DNA from: Flavobacteriia bacterium
GTDB lineage: Bacteria; Bacteroidota; Bacteroidia; Flavobacteriales; Flavobacteriaceae
NCBI GenBank assembly: GCA_024635575.1
Contig: JAGXIN010000004.1
Coordinates: forward strand, 1 to 38,578
Direction: 5' to 3'
Length of the DNA stretch: 38,578 nucleotides
The first letter of the stretch is position 1, and each line of letters opens with the position of its first letter. Below, in pieces: positions 25,581-38,366 of the stretch. The notes below the pieces were generated by a model, which did no database searches, was not told the origin of the DNA, and saw nothing but the letters and a program-made list of their open reading frames with translations. A program made the position numbers and the translations under genes.

Positions 25581-26480
25581 ATGAGCGTACAATGGAAGGG
25601 CGTAATGCCAGCGGTTACAACAAAATTTACAGATGAGGACACTTTGGATTTGGTAAATTTTGAAATAAATATTAAAGCACAATTGGTGGCTGGTGTCAAT
25701 GGAATTATCCTTGGAGGCACTTTAGGCGAAGCGAGTACACTTACTGCTGATGAAAAAAAAATCCTGATCAAAAAAACAATCGAAATTGTAAAAGGTAAAG
25801 TTCCCGTAATTATTAATATTGCTGAGCAATCAACCTGCGCTGCTATTGAAGCGGTTCAAAAGGCCGAAGAATATGGAGCAAACGGATTAATGTTGTTGCC
25901 GCCAATGCGTTACAAAGCCGATGCCAGAGAAACGATAACTTATTTCAAAAAAATTGCCAAAAGCACCTTGCTGCCAATTATGATTTACAACAATCCGGTA
26001 GATTATGGTATTGAAGTGACCCTGGATATGTTCGAGGAATTGAAGGAATGTGAAAATATTCAGGCTGTAAAAGAATCTACGCGCGATATTTCAAACGTGA
26101 CCAGAATGAAAACGCGTTTTGGTAGCCGTTTTAAAATTTTATGTGGCGTTGACACCTTGGCATTAGAAAGTTTATTGATGGGTGCCGACGGATGGGTGGC
26201 TGGGTTGGTTTGCGCTTTCCCTGCGGAAACTGTTGCCATTTATAAATTGGTAAAAGCTGGAAAAACAAGAGAAGCCATTGCTATTTACAGTTGGTTTTTA
26301 CCTTTGTTAGAGTTGGATATAAATACTAAATTGGTACAAAATATTAAATTGGCGGAAGTTGCCACTGGGATTGGAACAGAAAATGTGCGAGAACCTCGTT
26401 TGCCTTTGGTGGGTGAAGAAAGAGCAAAAGTATTGGCAATTATTGAAAAAGCTTTAAAAAACAGACCAAACATCAATTAA
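25581..26480 (+). CDS. Dihydrodipicolinate synthase-family protein; likely 1-pyrroline-4-hydroxy-2-carboxylate deaminase
   Basis: GGTLGEASTLTADEK, YNNPVDYG, AVKEST Schiff-base Lys; function assigned from operon context. Confidence 0.85.
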   Translation: MSVQWKGVMPAVTTKFTDEDTLDLVNFEINIKAQLVAGVNGIILGGTLGEASTLTADEKKILIKKTIEIVKGKVPVIINIAEQSTCAAIEAVQKAEEYGANGLMLLPPMRYKADARETITYFKKIAKSTLLPIMIYNNPVDYGIEVTLDMFEELKECENIQAVKESTRDISNVTRMKTRFGSRFKILCGVDTLALESLLMGADGWVAGLVCAFPAETVAIYKLVKAGKTREAIAIYSWFLPLLELDINTKLVQNIKLAEVATGIGTENVREPRLPLVGEERAKVLAIIEKALKNRPNIN

Positions 26481-26483
26481 AAT

Positions 26484-26509
26484 GCCCCCTAACCCCCGAA
26501 GGGGGAATT
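26484..26509. repeat. Short palindromic intergenic element GCCCCCTAACCCCCGAAGGGGGAATT (copy 2, inverted relative to copy 1)
   Basis: Reverse complement AATTCCCCCTTCGGGGGTTAGGGGGC matches copy 1 at 7593. Confidence 0.75.
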
Positions 26510-26607
26510 AACGAAAGTTAAAAGTTTGTGCTAGGTTATTATAGCGTTGAAGTGAAAGTTCAAAAGGGAAAAAGACCAATAATACAATATACTAAAATAC
26601 ATAGAAA

Positions 26608-28191
26608 ATGATTACAGGAAAAAACTACATTGGAAATCTGCTGGCATCAACAGGGAAAGTGAAATTCAAAACATTCAATCCGAAGGAAAATAAGGAAAAC
26701 GATGTTGTTTTTTCTGAAGCTTCTGAAGCAGAAATTGAGATGGCAGTTGAATTGGCAACGGCAGCTTTTAAGGTGTTTCGAAGTATTTCAGGAATCAAAA
26801 AAAGTGAATTTTTAAACCAAATCGCCAATGAAATTGAAGCATTGGGCGATGAATTGATTAAAACCTATTGCTCAGAATCTGGTTTGCCGGAAGGCAGGGC
26901 AATTGGAGAAAGAGGAAGAACTGTTTTTCAGTTGCGCACTTTTGCCAATTTGGTAAAAGAAGGATCTTGGGTGGAAGCAACTATTGATACTGCTGATTTA
27001 AATAGAACACCCATTCCAAAAGTCGACATTCGTAAAATGTTAATTCCATTAGGTCCAATTGTGGTTTTTGGCGCAAGCAACTTTCCATTGGCCTATTCAA
27101 CAGCAGGCGGAGACACGGCAGCAGCATTTGCTGCAGGTTGTCCGGTTATTGTAAAGTCGCACCCAATGCATGCAGGAACTGGAGAATTGGTGGCATCTGC
27201 AATTATAAATGCTGCTGAAAAAACGGGTATGCCAAATGGCGTATTTTCAAATTTAAACAGCAGCGGTATTGAAGTTGGGGTTAAATTGGTGAAGCATCCG
27301 CAAGTAAAAGCGGTTGGTTTCACGGGAAGCGTTGGAGGAGGAAGAGCATTGTACAATTTGGCTTCACAGCGTCCGGAACCCATTCCTGTTTTTGCTGAAA
27401 TGGGAAGCGTAAATCCGGTAATTATTTTCCCAGATGCCACTAAAAATAAAGGGAGTGAATGGGCAAAGATTTATGCGGGTTCCATCACTTTAGGTTCTGG
27501 ACAATTTTGTACAAATCCCGGATTAATTTTAGGAATAAAAGGAGCCGATTTAAACAATTTTATTCAAAAATTATCTGAAGAAATTGTCAAAATTGAACCT
27601 ACTTGTATGTTGCATCCAAACATCATTGGTGCTTATGAAACTAAAAAGAAAATCATGCAAAAGCAAGAAGGTTTGGAAACTACTGCAAGTTTTTCTGATG
27701 AAATCACTGCTAATTTTGGCCGCCAAGCCATAACAACCGTTGAAGGCGCCACTTTTTTAAAAAACACAGCATTGCATCAGGAGGTTTTTGGACCATTCTC
27801 CATGGTGGTTCAGTGTGAAAATACGCAACAATTGGAAGAAATAATCACTCATTTAGAAGGACAGTTAACAGGAACAGTTTTGGCTGAAAATGAAGAATTG
27901 GAAAATTATGGTAAAGTTATAAACGCACTTGAAAATAGGGTGGGGCGTATTATTTTTAATGGGGTACCAACCGGTGTTGAGGTTTGTGCCGCAATGGTAC
28001 ATGGAGGTCCTTACCCAGCGTCAACCGACAGCAGGTTTACGGCCGTGGGAATCAATTCCATTAAACGTTGGGTGCGTCCGTTTAGTTTTCAAAGCTGGCC
28101 AAACGAAATGTTGCCAGACGAGCTTAAAAATGAAAATCCGTTAAAGATTTTCCGTGTTATTGATGGTGTTCAATCGGTAAAATCAATTTAA
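26608..28191 (+). CDS. NAD(P)-dependent aldehyde dehydrogenase, likely 2,5-dioxovalerate (alpha-ketoglutarate semialdehyde) dehydrogenase
   Basis: ALDH fold: VFGASNFPLAYSTAGGDTAAAFAAGCPVIVKSHP, GFTGSVGGGRAL, GSGQFCTNPG catalytic Cys; KGSADH-type sequence. Confidence 0.9.
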   Translation: MITGKNYIGNLLASTGKVKFKTFNPKENKENDVVFSEASEAEIEMAVELATAAFKVFRSISGIKKSEFLNQIANEIEALGDELIKTYCSESGLPEGRAIGERGRTVFQLRTFANLVKEGSWVEATIDTADLNRTPIPKVDIRKMLIPLGPIVVFGASNFPLAYSTAGGDTAAAFAAGCPVIVKSHPMHAGTGELVASAIINAAEKTGMPNGVFSNLNSSGIEVGVKLVKHPQVKAVGFTGSVGGGRALYNLASQRPEPIPVFAEMGSVNPVIIFPDATKNKGSEWAKIYAGSITLGSGQFCTNPGLILGIKGADLNNFIQKLSEEIVKIEPTCMLHPNIIGAYETKKKIMQKQEGLETTASFSDEITANFGRQAITTVEGATFLKNTALHQEVFGPFSMVVQCENTQQLEEIITHLEGQLTGTVLAENEELENYGKVINALENRVGRIIFNGVPTGVEVCAAMVHGGPYPASTDSRFTAVGINSIKRWVRPFSFQSWPNEMLPDELKNENPLKIFRVIDGVQSVKSI

Positions 28192-28204
28192 TGACGTTTG
28201 AGAA

Positions 28205-29215
28205 ATGAGCAGAAAAACTTTTTTTTGCGTTGATGCCCACACCTGCGGAAATCCGGTGCGCCTAGTTGCTGGTGGTGGTCCTCATTTAAAGGGAGCCAAT
28301 ATGAGCGAAAAGCGTCAGCATTTTTTAGAGGAATTCGATTGGATTCGCAAAGGATTGATGTTTGAACCGCGAGGACATGATATGATGAGCGGGAGTATTT
28401 TATTTCCGCCGCATAATGAGGAAAATGATTTTTCGATTTTATTTATTGAAACTTCCGGTAGTTTGCCCATGTGCGGCCATGGAACTATAGGGACAGTAAC
28501 CATTGCCATTGAAGAAGGTTTGATAACGCCAAAAATTCCTGGAAAAATAAGGATGGAAGCACCAGCCGGACTTGTGCATATTGAATACCAAAAAACCGGC
28601 AAAAAAGTAGACTGGGTGAAATTAATCAATGTAAAATCTTATTTGGCTGAGGAAGGATTAACAGTGGATTGTCCGGAATTGGGAGCACTTACTTTTGATG
28701 TTGCTTATGGAGGAAATTATTACGCCATAGTGGACCCGCAAGAAAATTTTAGTGGCATTCATAATTTTACGGCTAACAAATTAATTCAATATTCACAAGT
28801 CGTCAGAACGCGGATCAATGAAAAATATCCCAATTTGTTTATTCATCCCGAAAATGAAACCATTAGAGATGTGCGTCATTTGATGTGGACCGGAAATCCT
28901 ATCCATCCAACTTCTTCAGGCAGAAACGCCGTTTTTTACGGCGACAAAGCAATCGATCGTTCACCTTGCGGCACAGGAACATCAGCGCGTATGGCTCAAT
29001 TGTATGCTAAAGGCAAACTAAAACTTGGTGAAGAATTTATTCACGAAAGTTTTATTGGCTCTAAATTTATTGGAAAAATAGTGGAAGAAACCACTTTGAA
29101 CGGTGAAAAAGCAATTGTTCCCAGCATTCAGGGCTGGGCAAAAATATATGGTTACAACACTATTATTATTGATGAGGAAGATGATCCTTATGCACTCGGA
29201 TTTCAAGTTTTATAA
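28205..29215 (+). CDS. 4-hydroxyproline epimerase (proline racemase family)
   Basis: SLPMCGHGTIG and DRSPCGTGTSARMAQL: both catalytic cysteines present, favouring epimerase over Thr-containing dehydratase. Confidence 0.92.
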   Translation: MSRKTFFCVDAHTCGNPVRLVAGGGPHLKGANMSEKRQHFLEEFDWIRKGLMFEPRGHDMMSGSILFPPHNEENDFSILFIETSGSLPMCGHGTIGTVTIAIEEGLITPKIPGKIRMEAPAGLVHIEYQKTGKKVDWVKLINVKSYLAEEGLTVDCPELGALTFDVAYGGNYYAIVDPQENFSGIHNFTANKLIQYSQVVRTRINEKYPNLFIHPENETIRDVRHLMWTGNPIHPTSSGRNAVFYGDKAIDRSPCGTGTSARMAQLYAKGKLKLGEEFIHESFIGSKFIGKIVEETTLNGEKAIVPSIQGWAKIYGYNTIIIDEEDDPYALGFQVL

Positions 29216-29241
29216 ATATTTAAAGTTTAAACAATCATAAT

Positions 29242-30480
29242 TTGAAAAATGTTATCATCATCGGGGGTGGAATTATTGGATTATGTTCTGCATATTATTT
29301 GGCAAAAGAGGGGTCTAAAGTTACAGTTATTGACAAATCTGATTTGCTGGATGGCTGTTCTTATGGAAATGCGGGAATGATTGTTCCCAGCCATATTATA
29401 CCTATGGCACAGCCAGGCGTAATTCATCAGGGAATTAAATGGATGTTCAATGCCAAAAGTCCATTTTACATAAAACCAGCTTTAAGTTTGGATTTACTTT
29501 CTTGGTTGGTGCAATTTTACAAAAATTCCAATCAGAATCATGTCAACAAATCAATGGTTCCATTGCGGAATCTTTCTTTTTTCAGCAAAGAATTGTATCA
29601 GGAATTAGCGAAATCAACCAATGAATTCGGGTATCAGGAAAAAGGACTTTTAATGCTTTACAATACTGAAAAAGTTGGCGAAGAAGAGATAAAAACTGGA
29701 AAAATTGCTGAAGAATTGGGTATAGAAGTCGATTTTTTAGACCAACAGGAAGTTAAGAAGTTAGAGAAAAATATTAAAGTTAATGCGTTGGGGGCTGTGC
29801 ATTATAAATCGGATGCACATTTGTCTCCAAATCATTTTATGTCGTTTTTAAAATCCGAGTTAAATCTAATGGGGGTGAAAATGATTTCTAATTGTTCACT
29901 GTTGAATTTTAAGGTTTCCAATGAAAAAATTGAAGAATTAATCACCAATAAGGGTAATTTTAAGGCTGATGGATTTGTGCTTGCAACAAGTTCTTGGAGT
30001 GTGGAAATAGCCAAAAAGCTAGGAATTAAATTATATATTTTACCAGGGAAAGGCTATAGTTTTAATGTAGAAAACCTTTTGGTAAAACCAACAATTCCGT
30101 CTATTTTATGTGAGGGAAAAGTGGCTGTAACGCCTTTTAATAATGCTGTTCGGTTTGGCGGAACATTGGAAATCACCAACAATAATGACACTAAAATCAA
30201 TATAAAACGATTGCAGGGAATTGTAGAAAAAGTAAATCAATTTTATCCGGAGATAAAAGTTGACCTCCCAGAAAAGAAAAAAGTATGGCATGGTTTTAGG
30301 CCTTGCACACCAACCGGATTGCCAATTATTGAGAAATCTCAAAAAATTAAGAACTTGACCATTGCAGCAGGACATGCGATGATGGGCTTAAGTTTAGCTC
30401 CGGCTTCCGGAAAATTGGTCAGTGAACTGATAATGGATAAAAAACCATCTATAGACCTTTCAGAATTCAGGAGTACTTAA
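29242..30480 (+). CDS. FAD-dependent D-amino acid (D-hydroxyproline) dehydrogenase, DadA-like
   Basis: VIIIGGGIIGLCSAYYLAKEGSKVTVIDK; WHGFRPCTPTGLPIIEKS…GHAMMGLSLAPASGKLVSELI; TTG start. Confidence 0.9.
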   Translation: MKNVIIIGGGIIGLCSAYYLAKEGSKVTVIDKSDLLDGCSYGNAGMIVPSHIIPMAQPGVIHQGIKWMFNAKSPFYIKPALSLDLLSWLVQFYKNSNQNHVNKSMVPLRNLSFFSKELYQELAKSTNEFGYQEKGLLMLYNTEKVGEEEIKTGKIAEELGIEVDFLDQQEVKKLEKNIKVNALGAVHYKSDAHLSPNHFMSFLKSELNLMGVKMISNCSLLNFKVSNEKIEELITNKGNFKADGFVLATSSWSVEIAKKLGIKLYILPGKGYSFNVENLLVKPTIPSILCEGKVAVTPFNNAVRFGGTLEITNNNDTKINIKRLQGIVEKVNQFYPEIKVDLPEKKKVWHGFRPCTPTGLPIIEKSQKIKNLTIAAGHAMMGLSLAPASGKLVSELIMDKKPSIDLSEFRST

Positions 30481-30503: not shown

Positions 30504-30974
30504 ATGACTTTTATAGAAATTTTAATAAAGCTCAGAAGAATAGTGCGATCCGTAAATTTGGAAAGCAAGCGGGTGGATAAAGAATTGGGCGTGAGTATTC
30601 CTCAATTATTATGCCTTCAATTTTTGGCAGAGCAAGATGAATTTAAGGCAAATGCTTCAAAACTAAAAGGTTTTTTAAATTTAAATGCCAGCACAATTAC
30701 AGGGATTATATCAAGGCTGGAGAAAAAAAAACTTGTTATGAAACTTCCTAAATCCATTGACAAACGAGTTACTTTAATTTCTTTAACAACTAAAGGGAAG
30801 GAACTTATTCAAAATGCTCCAATTACTTTTCAACAAAAATTAAGTGAAAAGTTGCAAGCACTTCCGTCAGAAAAACTTAAAATCATCATTGAAGGAATTG
30901 ATTTGTTGACAGAACTTATGGAAGTTGATGAAATTGATGCCTTACCAATTATTACTTCGGAAGAATTTCTTTAG
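30504..30974 (+). CDS. MarR family transcriptional regulator
   Basis: Winged-helix: NASTITGIISRLEKKKLVMKLPKSIDKRVTLISLTTKGKEL. Confidence 0.92.
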   Translation: MTFIEILIKLRRIVRSVNLESKRVDKELGVSIPQLLCLQFLAEQDEFKANASKLKGFLNLNASTITGIISRLEKKKLVMKLPKSIDKRVTLISLTTKGKELIQNAPITFQQKLSEKLQALPSEKLKIIIEGIDLLTELMEVDEIDALPIITSEEFL

Positions 30975-31047
30975 GACTTATATATAGATACAATCGTTTT
31001 TTTTAAATATTATTTCATTTTCATTTTTTGGATTTAATCTTAAAAAG

Positions 31048-31059
31048 TTTCTGCAGAAA
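31048..31059. promoter_or_regulatory. MarR-type operator candidate, distal site (TTTCTGCAGAAA)
   Basis: Perfect 12-bp palindrome sharing TTTCTRCAGAAA core with the proximal site. Confidence 0.6.
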
Positions 31060-31156
31060 ACATAAAAATAAGTGTATTTTTATCAAAATATTTACCAATA
31101 AATCAACGTTATAGGATTTTGATTACTTGTTTGTTAAATTATTATAATTGATTTTC

Positions 31157-31178
31157 AATAGTTTCTACAGAAACTATT
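31157..31178. promoter_or_regulatory. MarR-type operator candidate, proximal site (AATAGTTTCT-AC-AGAAACTATT)
   Basis: Perfect 10-bp arms; covers the expected -33 region of the promoter with -7 TATTTTTG at 31182-31189. Confidence 0.7.
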
Positions 31179-31181
31179 TCG

Positions 31182-31189
31182 TATTTTTG
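31182..31189 (+). promoter_or_regulatory. Bacteroidota -7 promoter element (TATTTTTG) of the bS21-led operon
   Basis: Exact TAnnTTTG match 31 nt upstream of the bS21 ATG. Confidence 0.55.
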
Positions 31190-31219
31190 CGTCATAACCA
31201 TTAAAATAAAACAAGAAAT

Positions 31220-31414
31220 ATGCTCATTATACAAGTAAAGGAAGGCGAAAACATTGATAGAGCGCTAAAAAGATACAAACAAAAAACCAGAAGAACAAAA
31301 CTGATTAATAATTTAAGAGACCAGAAACAATTTACTAAAAAATCAGTAAAGAAAAGAATGAAATTGGCAAAGGCGGTTTACATACAGGATTTAAGAAATC
31401 AAGAAGAAAAATAA
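31220..31414 (+). CDS. rpsU: Ribosomal protein bS21 homolog, divergent (likely paralog)
   Basis: MLIIQVKEGENIDRALKRYKQK…SVKKRMKLAKAVYIQDLRNQEEK; 64 aa, S21 N-terminus and C-terminal helix; central region divergent. Confidence 0.9.
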   Translation: MLIIQVKEGENIDRALKRYKQKTRRTKLINNLRDQKQFTKKSVKKRMKLAKAVYIQDLRNQEEK

Positions 31415-31416
31415 AT

Positions 31417-31866
31417 ATGGAGACTTTTAAAATTTACAACAATATCACAACACCTTCAGCTGAAGAAAAGGAGGAAGCTATTTCGTTTTTATTTAAGCAC
31501 CTGCAGGAATATGGTGATAAAAAGGAAGATATTGGCAAATGTTTCGATTTTGCGGTAAGGGATTCCAAGGAAGAACTTGGCGGATTTGTATTGATGCTTT
31601 TGGAAAATAACGAAATTAAAGGCGTTACCATCGTTAACAAAACCGGAATGGCCGGATATATTCCTGAAAATATCCTTGTTTATATTGCCGTTCACGAAAA
31701 TGCCCGTGGTAAAGGTTATGGTAAAAAACTAATGAATAAAGCTATTGAATTGGCTGATGGTAATATTGCATTGCACGTAGAACCAAACAATCCGGCAAAA
31801 TTTTTATATGAAAAATTAGGCTTTGAAAATAAATATTTAGAAATGAGACTTAAAAAACAACAATAA
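31417..31866 (+). CDS. GNAT family N-acetyltransferase
   Basis: ILVYIAVHENARGKGYGKKLMNKAIELADGNIALHVEPNNPAKFLYEKLGFE (RGxGxG/A motif). Confidence 0.93.
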   Translation: METFKIYNNITTPSAEEKEEAISFLFKHLQEYGDKKEDIGKCFDFAVRDSKEELGGFVLMLLENNEIKGVTIVNKTGMAGYIPENILVYIAVHENARGKGYGKKLMNKAIELADGNIALHVEPNNPAKFLYEKLGFENKYLEMRLKKQQ

Positions 31867-31873
31867 ACTCTCT

Positions 31874-33277
31874 ATGGCTTTTTTAGACATTGTTGTTTTT
31901 GTTGTTTATATGGCCGCCGTTTTGGGGATTGGGTTTTATTTTTTTAAAAAAAATGAAACTGTTAAGGATTACTACGTCGGTGGAGGTGAAATGAGCAGTT
32001 TGCACGTGGGCTTATCCGTTGTTGCGACAGATGTAGGAGGAGGATTTTCAATTGGATTGGGCGGATTGGGTTTTGTGATGGGAATATCCGGTTCCTGGAT
32101 GTTATTTACCGGACTTATAGGCGCTTGGTTAAGCGCCGTTTTTTTGATTCCAAAGGTTGTTAAACTTGGTAATCTTCATGGTTTTTTAACATTTCCCGAA
32201 TTTTTGAAGCACAGTTACGGAACTACAGTAGCTATGGTTGCTGGTATTATTTCCTTTATTGGCTATTTGGGTTTTACTTCATCACAATTTCTTGCTGGCG
32301 CAAAGTTGGCAGTTGGCACATTTCCTTCTCTTGATTTGAATCAAGCTTTATTGATAATGGGAGGTGTGGCATTGGTTTATACTGTTTTTGGAGGGATGAA
32401 AGCTGTCATTTATACAGATACTTTTCAATGGATTATTTTAATGGTTGGGTTAATATTTGTAGGAATCCCTATTGCTTATAACTACTTAGGAGGTTATGAA
32501 GCGATTGTAAGTGTACTTCCTGATAAATATTTTTCATTGCAAAACGTTTCCTGGGTTCAACTTATAAATTGGTTTGTAATTATTGTTCCTATTTGGTTCG
32601 TTGGAATGACACTTTATCAAAGAATATACGCTTGCAAAGATGAAAAAACAGCAAAGAAGGCTTGGTTTATAGCAGGGCTTTTTGAATATCCTACAATGGC
32701 TTTTATGGGTGTAATTCTTGGTTTATTTTCAAGAGTCGCAGCTGCAAAAGGTATTTTTATTTCAGATGGATTTGAAAGTGAAATAGGGATGGATCCTGAG
32801 ATGGGAATGCCGTTGCTTTTAAAACATGTATTGCCTGTAGGTCTTATGGGATTAATGTTGTCAGCTTATTTTTCTGCAATAATGTCAACAGCAGACAGTT
32901 GTTTGTTGGCAGCATCAGGTAATTTTGTAACTGATATTTTAGGACTTAAGCATCCTAACAAAAGCAATATAAAAATTTCTCAGATTGTGACATTTGCGGT
33001 TGGTGGAGCTTCAATAATTATTGCCACTACTATGCAAAGTGTATTGTCGCTCATGCTATTGTCCTACTCATTTATGGTTTCAGGACTTTTGGTGCCAGTT
33101 TTAGGAATATTATTATCAAAAAAAAGAAAACCTGTAGCAGCTTTGTTCTCAATGATCATAGGAGGGTCTACAACACTGATTTTAACATTTCTTGAAGTGA
33201 AAATACCTTTTGGTTTTGACCCAATATTAATAGGAATTTCATTATCTTCCATTGTCTATTTAACAATTAAGAAATAA
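31874..33277 (+). CDS. Sodium:solute symporter (SSS family)
   Basis: KDYYVGGGEMSSLHVGLSVVATDVGGG; YTVFGGMKAVIYTDTFQWIIL; SAYFSAIMSTADSCLLAASGNFVTDI. Confidence 0.94.
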   Translation: MAFLDIVVFVVYMAAVLGIGFYFFKKNETVKDYYVGGGEMSSLHVGLSVVATDVGGGFSIGLGGLGFVMGISGSWMLFTGLIGAWLSAVFLIPKVVKLGNLHGFLTFPEFLKHSYGTTVAMVAGIISFIGYLGFTSSQFLAGAKLAVGTFPSLDLNQALLIMGGVALVYTVFGGMKAVIYTDTFQWIILMVGLIFVGIPIAYNYLGGYEAIVSVLPDKYFSLQNVSWVQLINWFVIIVPIWFVGMTLYQRIYACKDEKTAKKAWFIAGLFEYPTMAFMGVILGLFSRVAAAKGIFISDGFESEIGMDPEMGMPLLLKHVLPVGLMGLMLSAYFSAIMSTADSCLLAASGNFVTDILGLKHPNKSNIKISQIVTFAVGGASIIIATTMQSVLSLMLLSYSFMVSGLLVPVLGILLSKKRKPVAALFSMIIGGSTTLILTFLEVKIPFGFDPILIGISLSSIVYLTIKK

Positions 33278-33282
33278 CCGAT

Positions 33283-34356
33283 ATGGCATATATAACACTC
33301 AATAAAAAATCATTAACTCATAATTATTCATTTTTACAGTCGTTGTTTGCAAGCCATCAAAAGGAATGGGCTCCTGTATTGAAGTTGCTTTGCGGGAATA
33401 AAACCTTCTTGGAATATGTATTGTCATTAGGCGATGAACAGGTATGCGACGCTCGATTGAGCAATATAAAAAGAATTAAAGCCATAAATCCTGATAAAGA
33501 AACCATCTACATAAAACCTCCTGCGAAGCGAAGCATACCCAATGTAGTTAAATATGCTGATGTAAGTTTTAATACAGAATTAACGACCATGAAATGGTTA
33601 TCCATAGAAGCCGTTAAACAGCAAAAAATCCACCGAATTATTATTATGATTGAATTGGGTGATTTGCGCGAAGGTATTATGGGTGAGTATTTAATGGAAT
33701 TTTACAAAAAAATATTTGAGTTGCCCAATATTCAAGTGGCGGGCATTGGAGCAAATCTAAATTGTTTAAGCGGTGTGATGCCAAGCAAAGACAAGCTAAT
33801 TCAATTGAGTTTGTATGAACAATTGATTGAAGCAAAATTCGGAAAGAAAATTGATTATGTGTCAGGCGGATCTTCCGTGATGATTCCTCTTTTATTAAAA
33901 AAGCAAATTCCTAAGGGAATTAATCATTTCAGAATTGGGGAAACCCTGTTTTTTGGCGTTGATTTATTTACAAATAAAACAATCCCTAAAATGAAGGATG
34001 ATGTTTTTATGCTTTACACCGAAATCATTGAGATTACTGAAAAACCCATTATTCCTTATGGTTATTTAGAAGAAAATCCTTCGGGAGAAACCTTGGAAAT
34101 TGACCCTGAGGATTACGGAAAAAACCACAGCAGGGGAATTTTAGACATAGGGCTTTTGGACATTTCTAATACTGAATTTTTGATTCCAGTTGACAAAGAG
34201 ATTACCTTTATTGGCGCAAGCTCCGATATGTTGGTGGTGGATTTGAGCAAAACAGCAAAAAAATATAAAGTCGGTGACTTGGTTAGGTTTAAAATGAAAT
34301 ATATGGGTGCCTTGCGCGTTATGAACTCTGAATATATTGAAAAGAAACTGGTTTAA
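33283..34356 (+). CDS. Alanine/ornithine racemase family PLP-dependent enzyme
   Basis: Alanine racemase N-domain-like: PVLKLLCGN (candidate PLP Lys), VSGGSSVMIPLL, INHFRIGETLFFG. Confidence 0.85.
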   Translation: MAYITLNKKSLTHNYSFLQSLFASHQKEWAPVLKLLCGNKTFLEYVLSLGDEQVCDARLSNIKRIKAINPDKETIYIKPPAKRSIPNVVKYADVSFNTELTTMKWLSIEAVKQQKIHRIIIMIELGDLREGIMGEYLMEFYKKIFELPNIQVAGIGANLNCLSGVMPSKDKLIQLSLYEQLIEAKFGKKIDYVSGGSSVMIPLLLKKQIPKGINHFRIGETLFFGVDLFTNKTIPKMKDDVFMLYTEIIEITEKPIIPYGYLEENPSGETLEIDPEDYGKNHSRGILDIGLLDISNTEFLIPVDKEITFIGASSDMLVVDLSKTAKKYKVGDLVRFKMKYMGALRVMNSEYIEKKLV

Positions 34357-34489: not shown

Positions 34490-35785
34490 ATGAGATATGC
34501 CCAAATTCCTTCCGAATTATTTATAAAAAACAGACAAAATTTTACAGCAAAGATGGAGCCCAACTCCATCGCTATATTCACCTCAAATGATGTGATGCCC
34601 AACAATGCAGATGATGAAATGGGGTTTTCACAAAACAACGATTTGTTTTATTTAAGCGGCGTTGATCAGGAAGAATCTATTTTAGTATTGTACCCGGATG
34701 CTTTATTGCCTGCAAACAGGGAAATTTTATTTGTGAAAGAAACCAGCGATCTCATTAAAATTTGGGAAGGGGATAAGTTGACAAAAGAAAAGGCTTTTGA
34801 AATTTCAGGCGTTAAAAATGTAAAATGGTTGCAGGATTTTGACCTGACACTACAATATATGGCGTTTGAAGCGGATACTTTTTATATGGGTCATAATGAA
34901 CATAAAAAAACATTGACTGCTGAAATGTTGACCCAGCAAGACAGGATGATAGCCAGTTGCAAAGAAAAATATCCATTGCATAATTACAGGCGCGCTGCAA
35001 AAATTACCCGCGAACTTCGTCAAATTAAATCAGATGAAGAAATCGTACTTATGCAAAAAGCTACCGACATAAGTGTTGGTAGTTTTAAGAGGGTTTTAAA
35101 AGCCGTAAAATCAGGTATTATGGAGTACGAATTGGAAGCGGAACTAACCTACGAATTAATAAGAAAAGGTGCTAAACGCCACGCATTTATGCCAATTGTG
35201 GCTTCGGGAGCAAATGCCTGCGCATTGCATTACAACACCAATGATGCTATTTGTAAAGATGGTGATATGATATTAATGGATTTTGGAGTGTGTTATGCAA
35301 ATTACAATTCAGATACTACGCGTTGTTTTCCAGTAAACGGGAAGTTTTCAAAAAGACAGAAAGAAGTGTACAATGCAGTTTTATATTGTTTAAAGGAAGG
35401 GTCTAAATTGTTAAAACCAGGAGTGATTTCAGCCGGATATGAAAAACAAATGGCAAGTTTGGTTGAGCGGCAATTGATTAATTTGGGCTTGCTCGATGCT
35501 GAAAAAGTTAAAAATCAGGATCCTGAAAATCCGTTATATAAAAAGTATTTTATGCACGGAACAGCTCATTTTATTGGTTTGGATGTGCATGATGTTGGTT
35601 TGTATACCCGACCATTTGAGGCGGGAATGGTATTGACCTGTGAACCTGGAATTTATATTCCTGAAGAAGGTATTGGTTGTCGTTTGGAGAATGATTATTT
35701 AATCACCGAAAATGGAAACTTTAATTTAACAGCGGACATGCCTATTGAAATTGATGAAATTGAATCCCTGATGAATGTTAAATAG
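34490..35785 (+). CDS. Xaa-Pro aminopeptidase (aminopeptidase P, M24B)
   Basis: Aminopeptidase P N-terminal domain; MDFGVCYANYNSDTTRCFPVNGKFS; HGTAHFIGLDVHDVG; LTCEPGIYIPEEGIGCRLEND metal ligands. Confidence 0.95.
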   Translation: MRYAQIPSELFIKNRQNFTAKMEPNSIAIFTSNDVMPNNADDEMGFSQNNDLFYLSGVDQEESILVLYPDALLPANREILFVKETSDLIKIWEGDKLTKEKAFEISGVKNVKWLQDFDLTLQYMAFEADTFYMGHNEHKKTLTAEMLTQQDRMIASCKEKYPLHNYRRAAKITRELRQIKSDEEIVLMQKATDISVGSFKRVLKAVKSGIMEYELEAELTYELIRKGAKRHAFMPIVASGANACALHYNTNDAICKDGDMILMDFGVCYANYNSDTTRCFPVNGKFSKRQKEVYNAVLYCLKEGSKLLKPGVISAGYEKQMASLVERQLINLGLLDAEKVKNQDPENPLYKKYFMHGTAHFIGLDVHDVGLYTRPFEAGMVLTCEPGIYIPEEGIGCRLENDYLITENGNFNLTADMPIEIDEIESLMNVK

Positions 35786-36030: not shown

Positions 36031-36138
36031 GTGTTATATATTTATAAATTTTTTAGTGCCAAGGAAAAAGCAATTGAACTGGCAGGCAAAATCATTGTGA
36101 ACAGAAAAATGAAATATTTATCATCAAATATTAAATAA
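36031..36138 (+). CDS. Possible small upstream ORF (35 aa, GTG start) overlapping the kinase start as TAATG
   Basis: Open frame …LYIYKFFSAKEKAIELAGKIIVNRKMKYLSSNIK*, stop TAA 36136-36138 overlaps ATG at 36138; weak evidence. Confidence 0.25.
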   Translation: MLYIYKFFSAKEKAIELAGKIIVNRKMKYLSSNIK

Positions 36139-38366
36139 TGAAGGAATCCATTCTCATAGGATTATTACAAAATACAGCTATATTACTTGCTTTTTCATTG
36201 TTGTATCAAAATATATGGATTAAGAACGAGGCTACTAAAAGTATTTCAGCAAAAATTGTAGTTGGACTGGTATTAAGCTGCATCGGCATTATTTTGATGT
36301 CTACGCCTTGGATGTTGATTCCTGGAATTGCTTTTGATATGCGTTCTGTTTTGCTTTCCGTATCTGGTTTATTTTTTGGGCCAATTCCTACTATAATTGC
36401 TATGTTGGTAACTGGGATTGTTCGGGTAACTATGGGCGGAGAAGGATTGTGGATGGGTTTGGCAATAATTATTTTCTCTGGAACAATTGGTTTGTTATGG
36501 CGAAGATATAGACCAAACTGGAAATCCAAAAATTATTATCTTGAATTGTTGGCAATGGGTTTGGTTGTACATATTATAATGTTGGCCAGTACCATCTTCC
36601 TTCCATCTGATAAAATATTTTCAACCTTAAAAACCATAGCCCTTCCCATTATATTTATTTATGCTCCTGCTACAATGTTACTGGGTGTTTTATTGCTTAA
36701 ACAATATAAAAACTGGCAAAATGAATTGGCCCAATTACAATTAAAGGAATATGAACGCCGATTTACACAAATACTGGAAAGTGGAAATATTGTTTCTCTT
36801 ATGCTGAATAATGACGGAAGCATAAACTTTTGTAATGATTACATATTACGAATAACAGGATATGAAAAAGAGGAAGTATTGGGGAAAAACTGGTTTGAGA
36901 TATTTGTTCCAATTGATGAAAGACCAAAATTAAAGCAGTTATTTTCTAAGGGGATGAAAATCAAAGAGTTTTCAAAAAATTATGAAAACAAAATACTTAC
37001 GAAAACAGGGGAGCAATTATATATTTTATGGTATAATATAGCATTAAAATCGGATGAAGGAGAAGTAATGGGAACTGCAAGTATTGGCGTAAACGTTACG
37101 GAGAGCAAAAATCATGAAAAAATGCTCGAAGAAAAAAATGCCGAAATAAAAGCCCAAAACGAATCATTAAAAAAAATAAATCAAGAATTGCAAATAGCCA
37201 AAGAACGTGCTGAAAAAAGCGACCTTTTAAAATCGGCTTTTCTTGCCAATATGAGCCATGAAGTTCGCACACCTATGAACAGTATTCTTGGCTTTTCTGG
37301 TTTATTGAAGGAATCAAATCTCGTTAATGAAAAGCAAAAGAGATATATTGGCGTTATTGAGCATAGCGGAAAACGAATGCTCAATATTATAAACGACATT
37401 CTTACAATCTCAAGAATAGAGTCAGGAACTGTGGAGGTCATTATTTCTGAATTTAATATAAATGAGCAAATAGAAAGTTTATTCACATCTTTTAAAGATG
37501 AAATTGAAAAAAAAGGAATTGATTTCAACTATAAAAATGACTTACCGGATAGTGAAGCCATGATAATTTCTGATGGTGAAAAATTTTATGCTATCTTTCT
37601 CAATTTAATTAAAAACGCCATAAAATTTACAAATCATGGCACCATAGAATTTGGCTATATCTTAAAAATAGATGTTGAACCTGCCGAACTGGAGTTTTTC
37701 ATAAAAGATACTGGCGGAGGCATTCCACAGGAACAACTGGAATTTATTTTTGAAAGGTTTAGACAAGGCAGTGAATCTCTTACCAGAAATTATGAGGGCG
37801 CCGGTTTGGGATTGTCTATTTCTAAAGCTTATACGGAATTGTTGGGCGGTAAAATTTGGGCTGAAAGTGAAGAAGAAAATCTATCCTCCGGTAAGGCAGG
37901 AAAGACGACTTTTTACTTTACTATTCCCTATGATGTGAAACCAAATAAAAAAACAGATATGAAAAATTCAACCTATGAAACAGGAAAAACGCATCAGGAC
38001 AATGAAATGAAAATATTAATTGTTGAAGACGATGTAACTTCTGAAGAGATGCTGGAAATTATGATTGAGGATTATTGCAAAGCCCCTTTAGTTGCGTATA
38101 ACGGATTGGAAGCGGTTCAATTATGTAAAGATAATCCAGATATTGATTTTGTTTTAATGGATATTAAACTGCCTAAATTAAATGGCTATGAAGCCACAAA
38201 GCAAATTAGGCAGTTCAACAAAGATCTTATAATTTTCGCACAAACTGCCTACGCGCTTCCGGGAGACAGGGAAAAGGCAATAGAGGCGGGCTGTAACGAT
38301 TATATTTCAAAACCATACAGTCAAAGCGAATTGACTGGGTTGATTAATAAGTATTTTAAGAAATAA
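36138..38366 (+). CDS. Hybrid sensor histidine kinase: LytS-like 5TM sensor, PAS, HisKA, HATPase, C-terminal receiver
   Basis: MRSVLLSVSGLFFGPIPTIIAMLVTGIVRVTMGGEGLWMG (5TM-5TMR_LYT-like); MSHEVRTPMNSILGFSGLL; GAGLGLSISKAYTELLGG; ILIVEDDVTSEE…VLMDIKLPKLNGYEAT…SKP. Confidence 0.93.
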   Translation: MKESILIGLLQNTAILLAFSLLYQNIWIKNEATKSISAKIVVGLVLSCIGIILMSTPWMLIPGIAFDMRSVLLSVSGLFFGPIPTIIAMLVTGIVRVTMGGEGLWMGLAIIIFSGTIGLLWRRYRPNWKSKNYYLELLAMGLVVHIIMLASTIFLPSDKIFSTLKTIALPIIFIYAPATMLLGVLLLKQYKNWQNELAQLQLKEYERRFTQILESGNIVSLMLNNDGSINFCNDYILRITGYEKEEVLGKNWFEIFVPIDERPKLKQLFSKGMKIKEFSKNYENKILTKTGEQLYILWYNIALKSDEGEVMGTASIGVNVTESKNHEKMLEEKNAEIKAQNESLKKINQELQIAKERAEKSDLLKSAFLANMSHEVRTPMNSILGFSGLLKESNLVNEKQKRYIGVIEHSGKRMLNIINDILTISRIESGTVEVIISEFNINEQIESLFTSFKDEIEKKGIDFNYKNDLPDSEAMIISDGEKFYAIFLNLIKNAIKFTNHGTIEFGYILKIDVEPAELEFFIKDTGGGIPQEQLEFIFERFRQGSESLTRNYEGAGLGLSISKAYTELLGGKIWAESEEENLSSGKAGKTTFYFTIPYDVKPNKKTDMKNSTYETGKTHQDNEMKILIVEDDVTSEEMLEIMIEDYCKAPLVAYNGLEAVQLCKDNPDIDFVLMDIKLPKLNGYEATKQIRQFNKDLIIFAQTAYALPGDREKAIEAGCNDYISKPYSQSELTGLINKYFKK

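Follow-up and report, generated by a model that had tools for sequence, protein, structure and literature searches.

Introduction

In F. johnsoniae, rpsU carries an extended Shine-Dalgarno sequence and is best translated by bS21-less ribosomes, whose anti-Shine-Dalgarno (ASD) is free, and Tyr54 of Bacteroidia bS21 stacks on A1534 (PMC9976891). Francisella tularensis possesses several bS21 homologs, and gene expression is governed by one of these (PMC9578407); the bS21s of Bacteroidota phages diverge at residues 21, 23, 25 and 28 (PMC9723584). The C-minus paralogs of the Zur regulon, in the summary given by PMC9976891, are likewise ribosomal protein paralogs under a small-molecule-responsive repressor.

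The stretch of DNA analyzed here (the window; 38,578 nucleotides of contig JAGXIN010000004.1, assembly GCA_024635575.1) encodes at 31220-31414, on the forward strand, a 64-aa bS21 paralog, termed bS21-B, as the first gene of an operon. It belongs to the same family as the F. johnsoniae protein (PMC9976891; PDB 7jil) and has the same length and Tyr54; however, it shows basic or hydrophobic changes at residues 23-30 and 41-44, lacks a Shine-Dalgarno sequence, is preceded by palindromic candidate operators, and lies in a catabolic operon instead of rpsU-xerC-hpf-tuf. The likeness to Francisella tularensis lies in multiple bS21 paralogs per cell and ribosome heterogeneity (PMC9578407), although Lutibacter, the genus of the window genome and of the relatives compared with it, is from a different phylum, and bS21-B has its own candidate operator, a catabolic operon and no virulence link. 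As in the phage proteins (PMC9723584), an aromatic residue 54 is kept and divergence falls in the 21-28 region, but bS21-B is cellular, with its own likely regulator and metabolic neighbors. Compared with the Zur-regulon paralogs as that source summarizes them, bS21 binds no zinc, and the likely regulator is of MarR type with catabolic neighbors. No account of Flavobacteriaceae bS21 paralogs came up in our search of the open-access literature, outside which most subscription papers lay.

The reading we prefer, with slightly more belief than doubt, is that a MarR-controlled bS21-B would escape bS21 autoregulation and replace housekeeping bS21 in new 30S subunits. The gene bears on the question of whether bacteria make specialized ribosomes on demand, and it offers a directly testable natural case, since the switch is clear, the autoregulatory partner is known and Lutibacter hosts are in culture.

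Identity and Divergence of bS21-B

The product of 31220-31414 was a true bS21, scoring 50.5 bits against PF01165 (cut-off 27) and 46.9 bits against TIGR00030 (cut-off 28.95), in agreement with the reading frame, 64-aa sequence and identity given in an earlier note on this DNA; its assignment as a paralog drew on the tree, genomic context and Shine-Dalgarno absence. Its nearest solved structures were the bS21 chains of Bacteroidota ribosomes, with 7jil first, and the alignment to the F. johnsoniae bS21 of 7jil covered residues 1-61. The earlier note had also described a divergent middle and a retained Tyr54, and both observations held. The middle read KTRRTK or KTRNTK, compared with KFDRTK in the Lutibacter housekeeping copies, and the sampled Lutibacter paralogs differed from the sampled housekeeping copies at residues 23, 24, 28, 30, 41 and 44 (F23>T/V, D24>R, T28>hydrophobic with Q in one, R/K30>N, P41>K and V44>K/R). 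Tyr54 was unchanged in the window copy and in every Lutibacter paralog. Pairwise omega was approximately 0.08-0.13, similar to that of the housekeeping gene, and bS21-B is under purifying selection.

These features also bear on whether bS21-B works off the ribosome, binding RNA to regulate either the operon or a small RNA. A precedent is the bS21 that PMC12054373 reports in the OLE ribonucleoprotein complex of Bacillota; full length, Tyr54 and a conserved N-terminal core fit a ribosomal constraint instead, and we regard an off-ribosome role as quite improbable.

The gene at 31220-31414 is a distinct bS21 paralog and not the housekeeping copy. bS21-B was found beside a housekeeping rpsU in 23 of 36 other Lutibacter genomes, all 23 carriers having both. 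The housekeeping locus had the order rpsU-xerC-hpf-tuf (with a xerC-like gene) in every Lutibacter copy fetched with enough flank, which verified in these relatives the context that had been expected for it, and bS21-B lay outside this arrangement with MarR and GNAT genes as its neighbors. A proposed search for a second rpsU thus succeeded in the relatives, while the window's own genome, a 62%-complete MAG, yielded one bS21, the paralog. Neither hpf nor the housekeeping rpsU was found in that assembly; since it is 62% complete and hpf is missing too, the missing rpsU is uninformative, and the housekeeping region is most simply explained as unassembled.

Operon and Catabolic Neighborhood

Four genes followed one another on the forward strand in the order bS21, GNAT, SSS, racemase, with intergenic gaps of 2, 7 and 5 bp, in keeping with the previous proposal that this bS21 heads a catabolic operon. 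The second gene (31417-31866) encodes a GNAT N-acetyltransferase (PF00583, 51.9 bits), the third (31874-33277) a PutP-like sodium:solute symporter (SSS; PF00474, 147.7 bits), and the fourth (33283-34356) a PLP-dependent, ornithine-racemase-like racemase (PF01168; NF040742 at 308 bits, below the cut-off of 480). An M24 Xaa-Pro aminopeptidase (34490-35785, forward strand; PF00557 and PF05195) begins 133 bp beyond the racemase and is possibly on the same transcript. Farther downstream, a hybrid histidine kinase with 5TMR-LYT, PAS and receiver domains (36138-38366 in the window) was retained at some of the Lutibacter loci.

Upstream of the MarR gene and bS21-B, the forward strand of 25581-30480 encodes a DHDPS-family deaminase, an aldehyde dehydrogenase, a 4-hydroxyproline epimerase and an FAD amino-acid oxidase/dehydrogenase (DHDPS, Aldedh, PRK13971 and DAO, respectively), the epimerase scoring 582 bits against PRK13971 (cut-off 376). 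This gene set presumably serves trans-4-hydroxyproline degradation. No operator of the type described below was found before the hydroxyproline genes within the window, which leaves the inducer uncertain.

In every Lutibacter locus, and in approximately half of the other Flavobacteriaceae loci with a GNAT at an identity of at least 50%, GNAT was directly 3' of bS21, loci retrieved via GNAT being a biased sample of bS21 contexts (L163, L187, L191, L213 and L216 came from an unbiased bS21 search). Such adjacency could mean that GNAT modifies bS21-B and that the pair forms one ribosomal unit, and the enzyme did match the RimI model weakly; however, the 32.7 bits obtained left the cut-off of 86.4 unreached, and GNAT occurred with a racemase, peptidase or symporter but without bS21 in several genomes. 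Because GNAT-racemase pairs exist without bS21, the metabolic module is able to work without it, and for the same reason we rank GNAT as a bS21-modifying enzyme low, giving it very little credence.

Promoter, Candidate Operators and MarR-Family Regulator

The bS21-B promoter contained the conserved palindrome GTTTCTRYAGAAAC. In the window, candidate operator O1 (31161-31174, unstranded) is the palindrome GTTTCTACAGAAAC, located just 5' of the -7 box TATTTTTG (31182-31189, forward strand), which is conserved directly 3' of O1. The Bacteroidota -7 element has the consensus TAnnTTTG, which we take TATTTTTG to match. Across the loci compared (24 from Lutibacter plus L163, from G265), the palindrome GTTTCYRYAGAAAC lay directly 5' of a TATTTT-type -7 box in 25/25, at positions -49 to -60 relative to the start codon. 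Candidate operator O2, GTTTCTGCAGAAAA (31047-31060, unstranded), is 114 bp 5' of O1, and 20 of the 25 loci had a second palindrome, among them L034, where it was weak (9/12 positions). The distance was 113-115 bp in 19 loci and 105 bp in one more (L035); no clear second palindrome was seen in the remaining five (L043, L041, L045, L046 and L015). The DNA between O1 and O2 was poorly conserved. As the exceptional spacing in L035 is shorter by about one helical turn, it fits a placement of O1 and O2 on one face of the DNA, from which we infer looping between them.

A scan of 85,462 genomes in which the palindrome had to be combined with the promoter returned 49 stretches, with a nearby bS21 judged by tblastn. 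Those followed by bS21 came only from Lutibacter or close relatives, several of which carry different names in their records (e.g., Gelidibacter sp. and Flavobacteriales bacterium), and the remaining stretches, in unrelated taxa, had no bS21 nearby by tblastn. The locus was carried by the cultured species Lutibacter litoralis, L. oceani, L. flavus and L. maritimus. A few Lutibacter genomes had the palindrome at other places as well. The sites inspected in G018, G019 and G024 fell within a coding gene and lacked a matching promoter, and an extra palindrome in G008 had no promoter match; all were taken as chance occurrences.

The candidate binder of O1 and O2 is the MarR-family regulator encoded at 30504-30974 on the forward strand (PF01047, 39.2 bits). 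Of 38 Lutibacter genomes, 24 had its ortholog, and precisely these 24 also had that of GNAT; they form the set with bS21-B, so that the co-occurrence sought by the earlier note was perfect within the genus (G060, one of the 38, was outside the bS21 search). Two genomes, G002 and G003, had their MarR gene on another contig, still beside hydroxyproline genes, and O1 was intact at bS21-B. Co-occurrence and position indicate that the MarR-family protein is the likely ligand of O1/O2. The conserved paired palindromes point to conditional expression of bS21-B, as had been proposed from the window; the regulation itself is read from promoter anatomy.

Shine-Dalgarno Loss and Proposed Mechanism

Pairing of the leader with the 16S tail was computed for 140 bS21 genes, with pairing below -13 kcal/mol taken as the extended Shine-Dalgarno criterion for a housekeeping rpsU. 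Every housekeeping Flavobacteriaceae copy sampled paired at -17.5 to -26.5 kcal/mol, while leader pairing of all sampled cellular paralogs was above -10 kcal/mol, mostly between -5 and +2. The bS21-B leader (31190-31219, forward strand) is short and A-rich, without a Shine-Dalgarno sequence, and its predicted pairing of approximately -2.3 kcal/mol places it outside the criterion. With such leaders the paralogs are apparently outside the rpsU feedback loop, and bS21-B appears to escape bS21 autoregulation. This loss of the autoregulatory Shine-Dalgarno sequence, overlooked by the earlier note, is the strongest clue, and it predicts a simple circuit in which a paralog silences the housekeeping rpsU.

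In the circuit that we propose, the MarR-family protein would bind O1 and O2, probably with the DNA between them looped, and repress the bS21-B promoter until a metabolite tied to the use of proline, hydroxyproline or D-amino acids relieved the repression, and bS21-B would then be co-produced with GNAT, the Na+ symporter and the racemase. Because no Shine-Dalgarno sequence is needed and Tyr54 is kept, ordinary ribosomes should make bS21-B, which should then fill the empty bS21 site. Once in the ribosome, it would cover the ASD, causing rpsU translation to fall, and new 30S subunits would carry bS21-B, whose altered helix 1-2 surface may change the choice of mRNAs at initiation. By such a mechanism, a Lutibacter cell may be able to alter its ribosome make-up when its food changes.

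Conservation makes replacement of housekeeping bS21 in the ribosome likely. A change in ASD occlusion, suggested before, is not favored since every Lutibacter copy keeps Tyr54; occlusion is probably retained with bS21-B, and as it is expected to persist, any effect would come from the helix 1-2 surface, the region in which phage bS21s diverge (cf. PMC9723584). An effect of bS21-B on mRNA choice is possible. It may instead be incorporated yet functionally equivalent, a spare supply when the operon is on that leaves mRNA choice unchanged. Tyr54, the N-terminal core and the overall length are as in the housekeeping copy, and the two genes are under equally strong selection, all of which suit equivalence. 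The consistent changes at the six positions in the sampled Lutibacter paralogs argue against it, as does the finding that separate bS21 lineages are linked to operons of one kind: divergent, unrelated copies were found in hydroxyproline clusters (L187, L191 and L216) and in GNAT/SSS/racemase clusters (L213 and L258). We consider equivalence unlikely.

bS21 Paralogs in Flavobacteriaceae and Phages

Two or three bS21s were present in 108 of the 301 Flavobacteriaceae genomes of the family sample; of the 145 genomes in the class sample that did not belong to this family, 5 had two. Paralogs without a Shine-Dalgarno sequence are common in Flavobacteriaceae, a point that had also been missed from the window. 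In a tree of 64 columns and moderate support, they separated from the housekeeping copies (support 85/74).

An IMG/VR phage clade fell among these cellular paralogs, and bS21-B was 60% identical to the copy in a 635-kb phage. Together with the phage divergence at residues 21, 23, 25 and 28 (PMC9723584), near the bS21-B changes, this could mean that bS21-B has a phage origin or defends against phages that bring their own bS21. The neighbors are metabolic, though, with no phage or defense genes seen at the loci, and the grouping had weak to moderate support and long branches; a phage connection of either kind is highly improbable. Searching viral contigs with bS21-B yielded no phage copy beyond 48-60% identity, the range of the huge-phage and IMG/VR genes matched (L223, L224, L225, L226 and L227-L246). 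The leader of the phage-type L225 paired at -12.1 kcal/mol.

Returning to the cellular genes, we entertain tentatively, and with more doubt than belief, a wider reading in which the Flavobacteriaceae paralogs lacking a Shine-Dalgarno sequence, each with its own regulatory unit, would supply alternative ribosomes for a nutritional or stress program. Three kinds of unit would be involved, namely MarR with a catabolic operon, a cold-shock cassette, and an additional sigma factor resembling RpoD. We identified the genes for sigma factors, cold-shock proteins and NYN proteins beside bS21 paralogs by eye from sequence. The "KVRKTKQ" type of paralog occurred with a cold-shock protein, an NYN-domain protein and a sigma factor, and the "KHRN" type was usually close to the gene for an additional RpoD-like sigma factor, of which many of the genomes concerned had two or three. 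Rows of sigma factor, bS21 and GNAT in L249, L250, L252 and L253, consecutive in each and with the symporter next in line in L249 and L250, link the sigma-type and catabolic-type contexts.

Among the individual loci, a small cold-shock-like protein was encoded near the bS21 paralog in L168, L188, L199, L202, L212 and L222, accompanied by an NYN-type protein in L168, L188 and L199 and by a sigma factor in L168, L199, L202 and L222. In many Flavobacteriaceae, an RpoD-like second sigma factor (287 aa) was directly 5' of the KHRN-type bS21, as in L171, L174, L177, L179 and L184; the same arrangement recurred in L201, L203, L206 and L207, and also in L198 with a related bS21. The genomes of several of the sigma-bS21 loci among L171-L207 contained two or three RpoD-like sigma genes. 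A palindrome of approximately TTTAGGATAATCCTAAA, which could be an operator or an mRNA hairpin, preceded the KHRN-type bS21 in L171, L174, L177, L195, L203 and L220.
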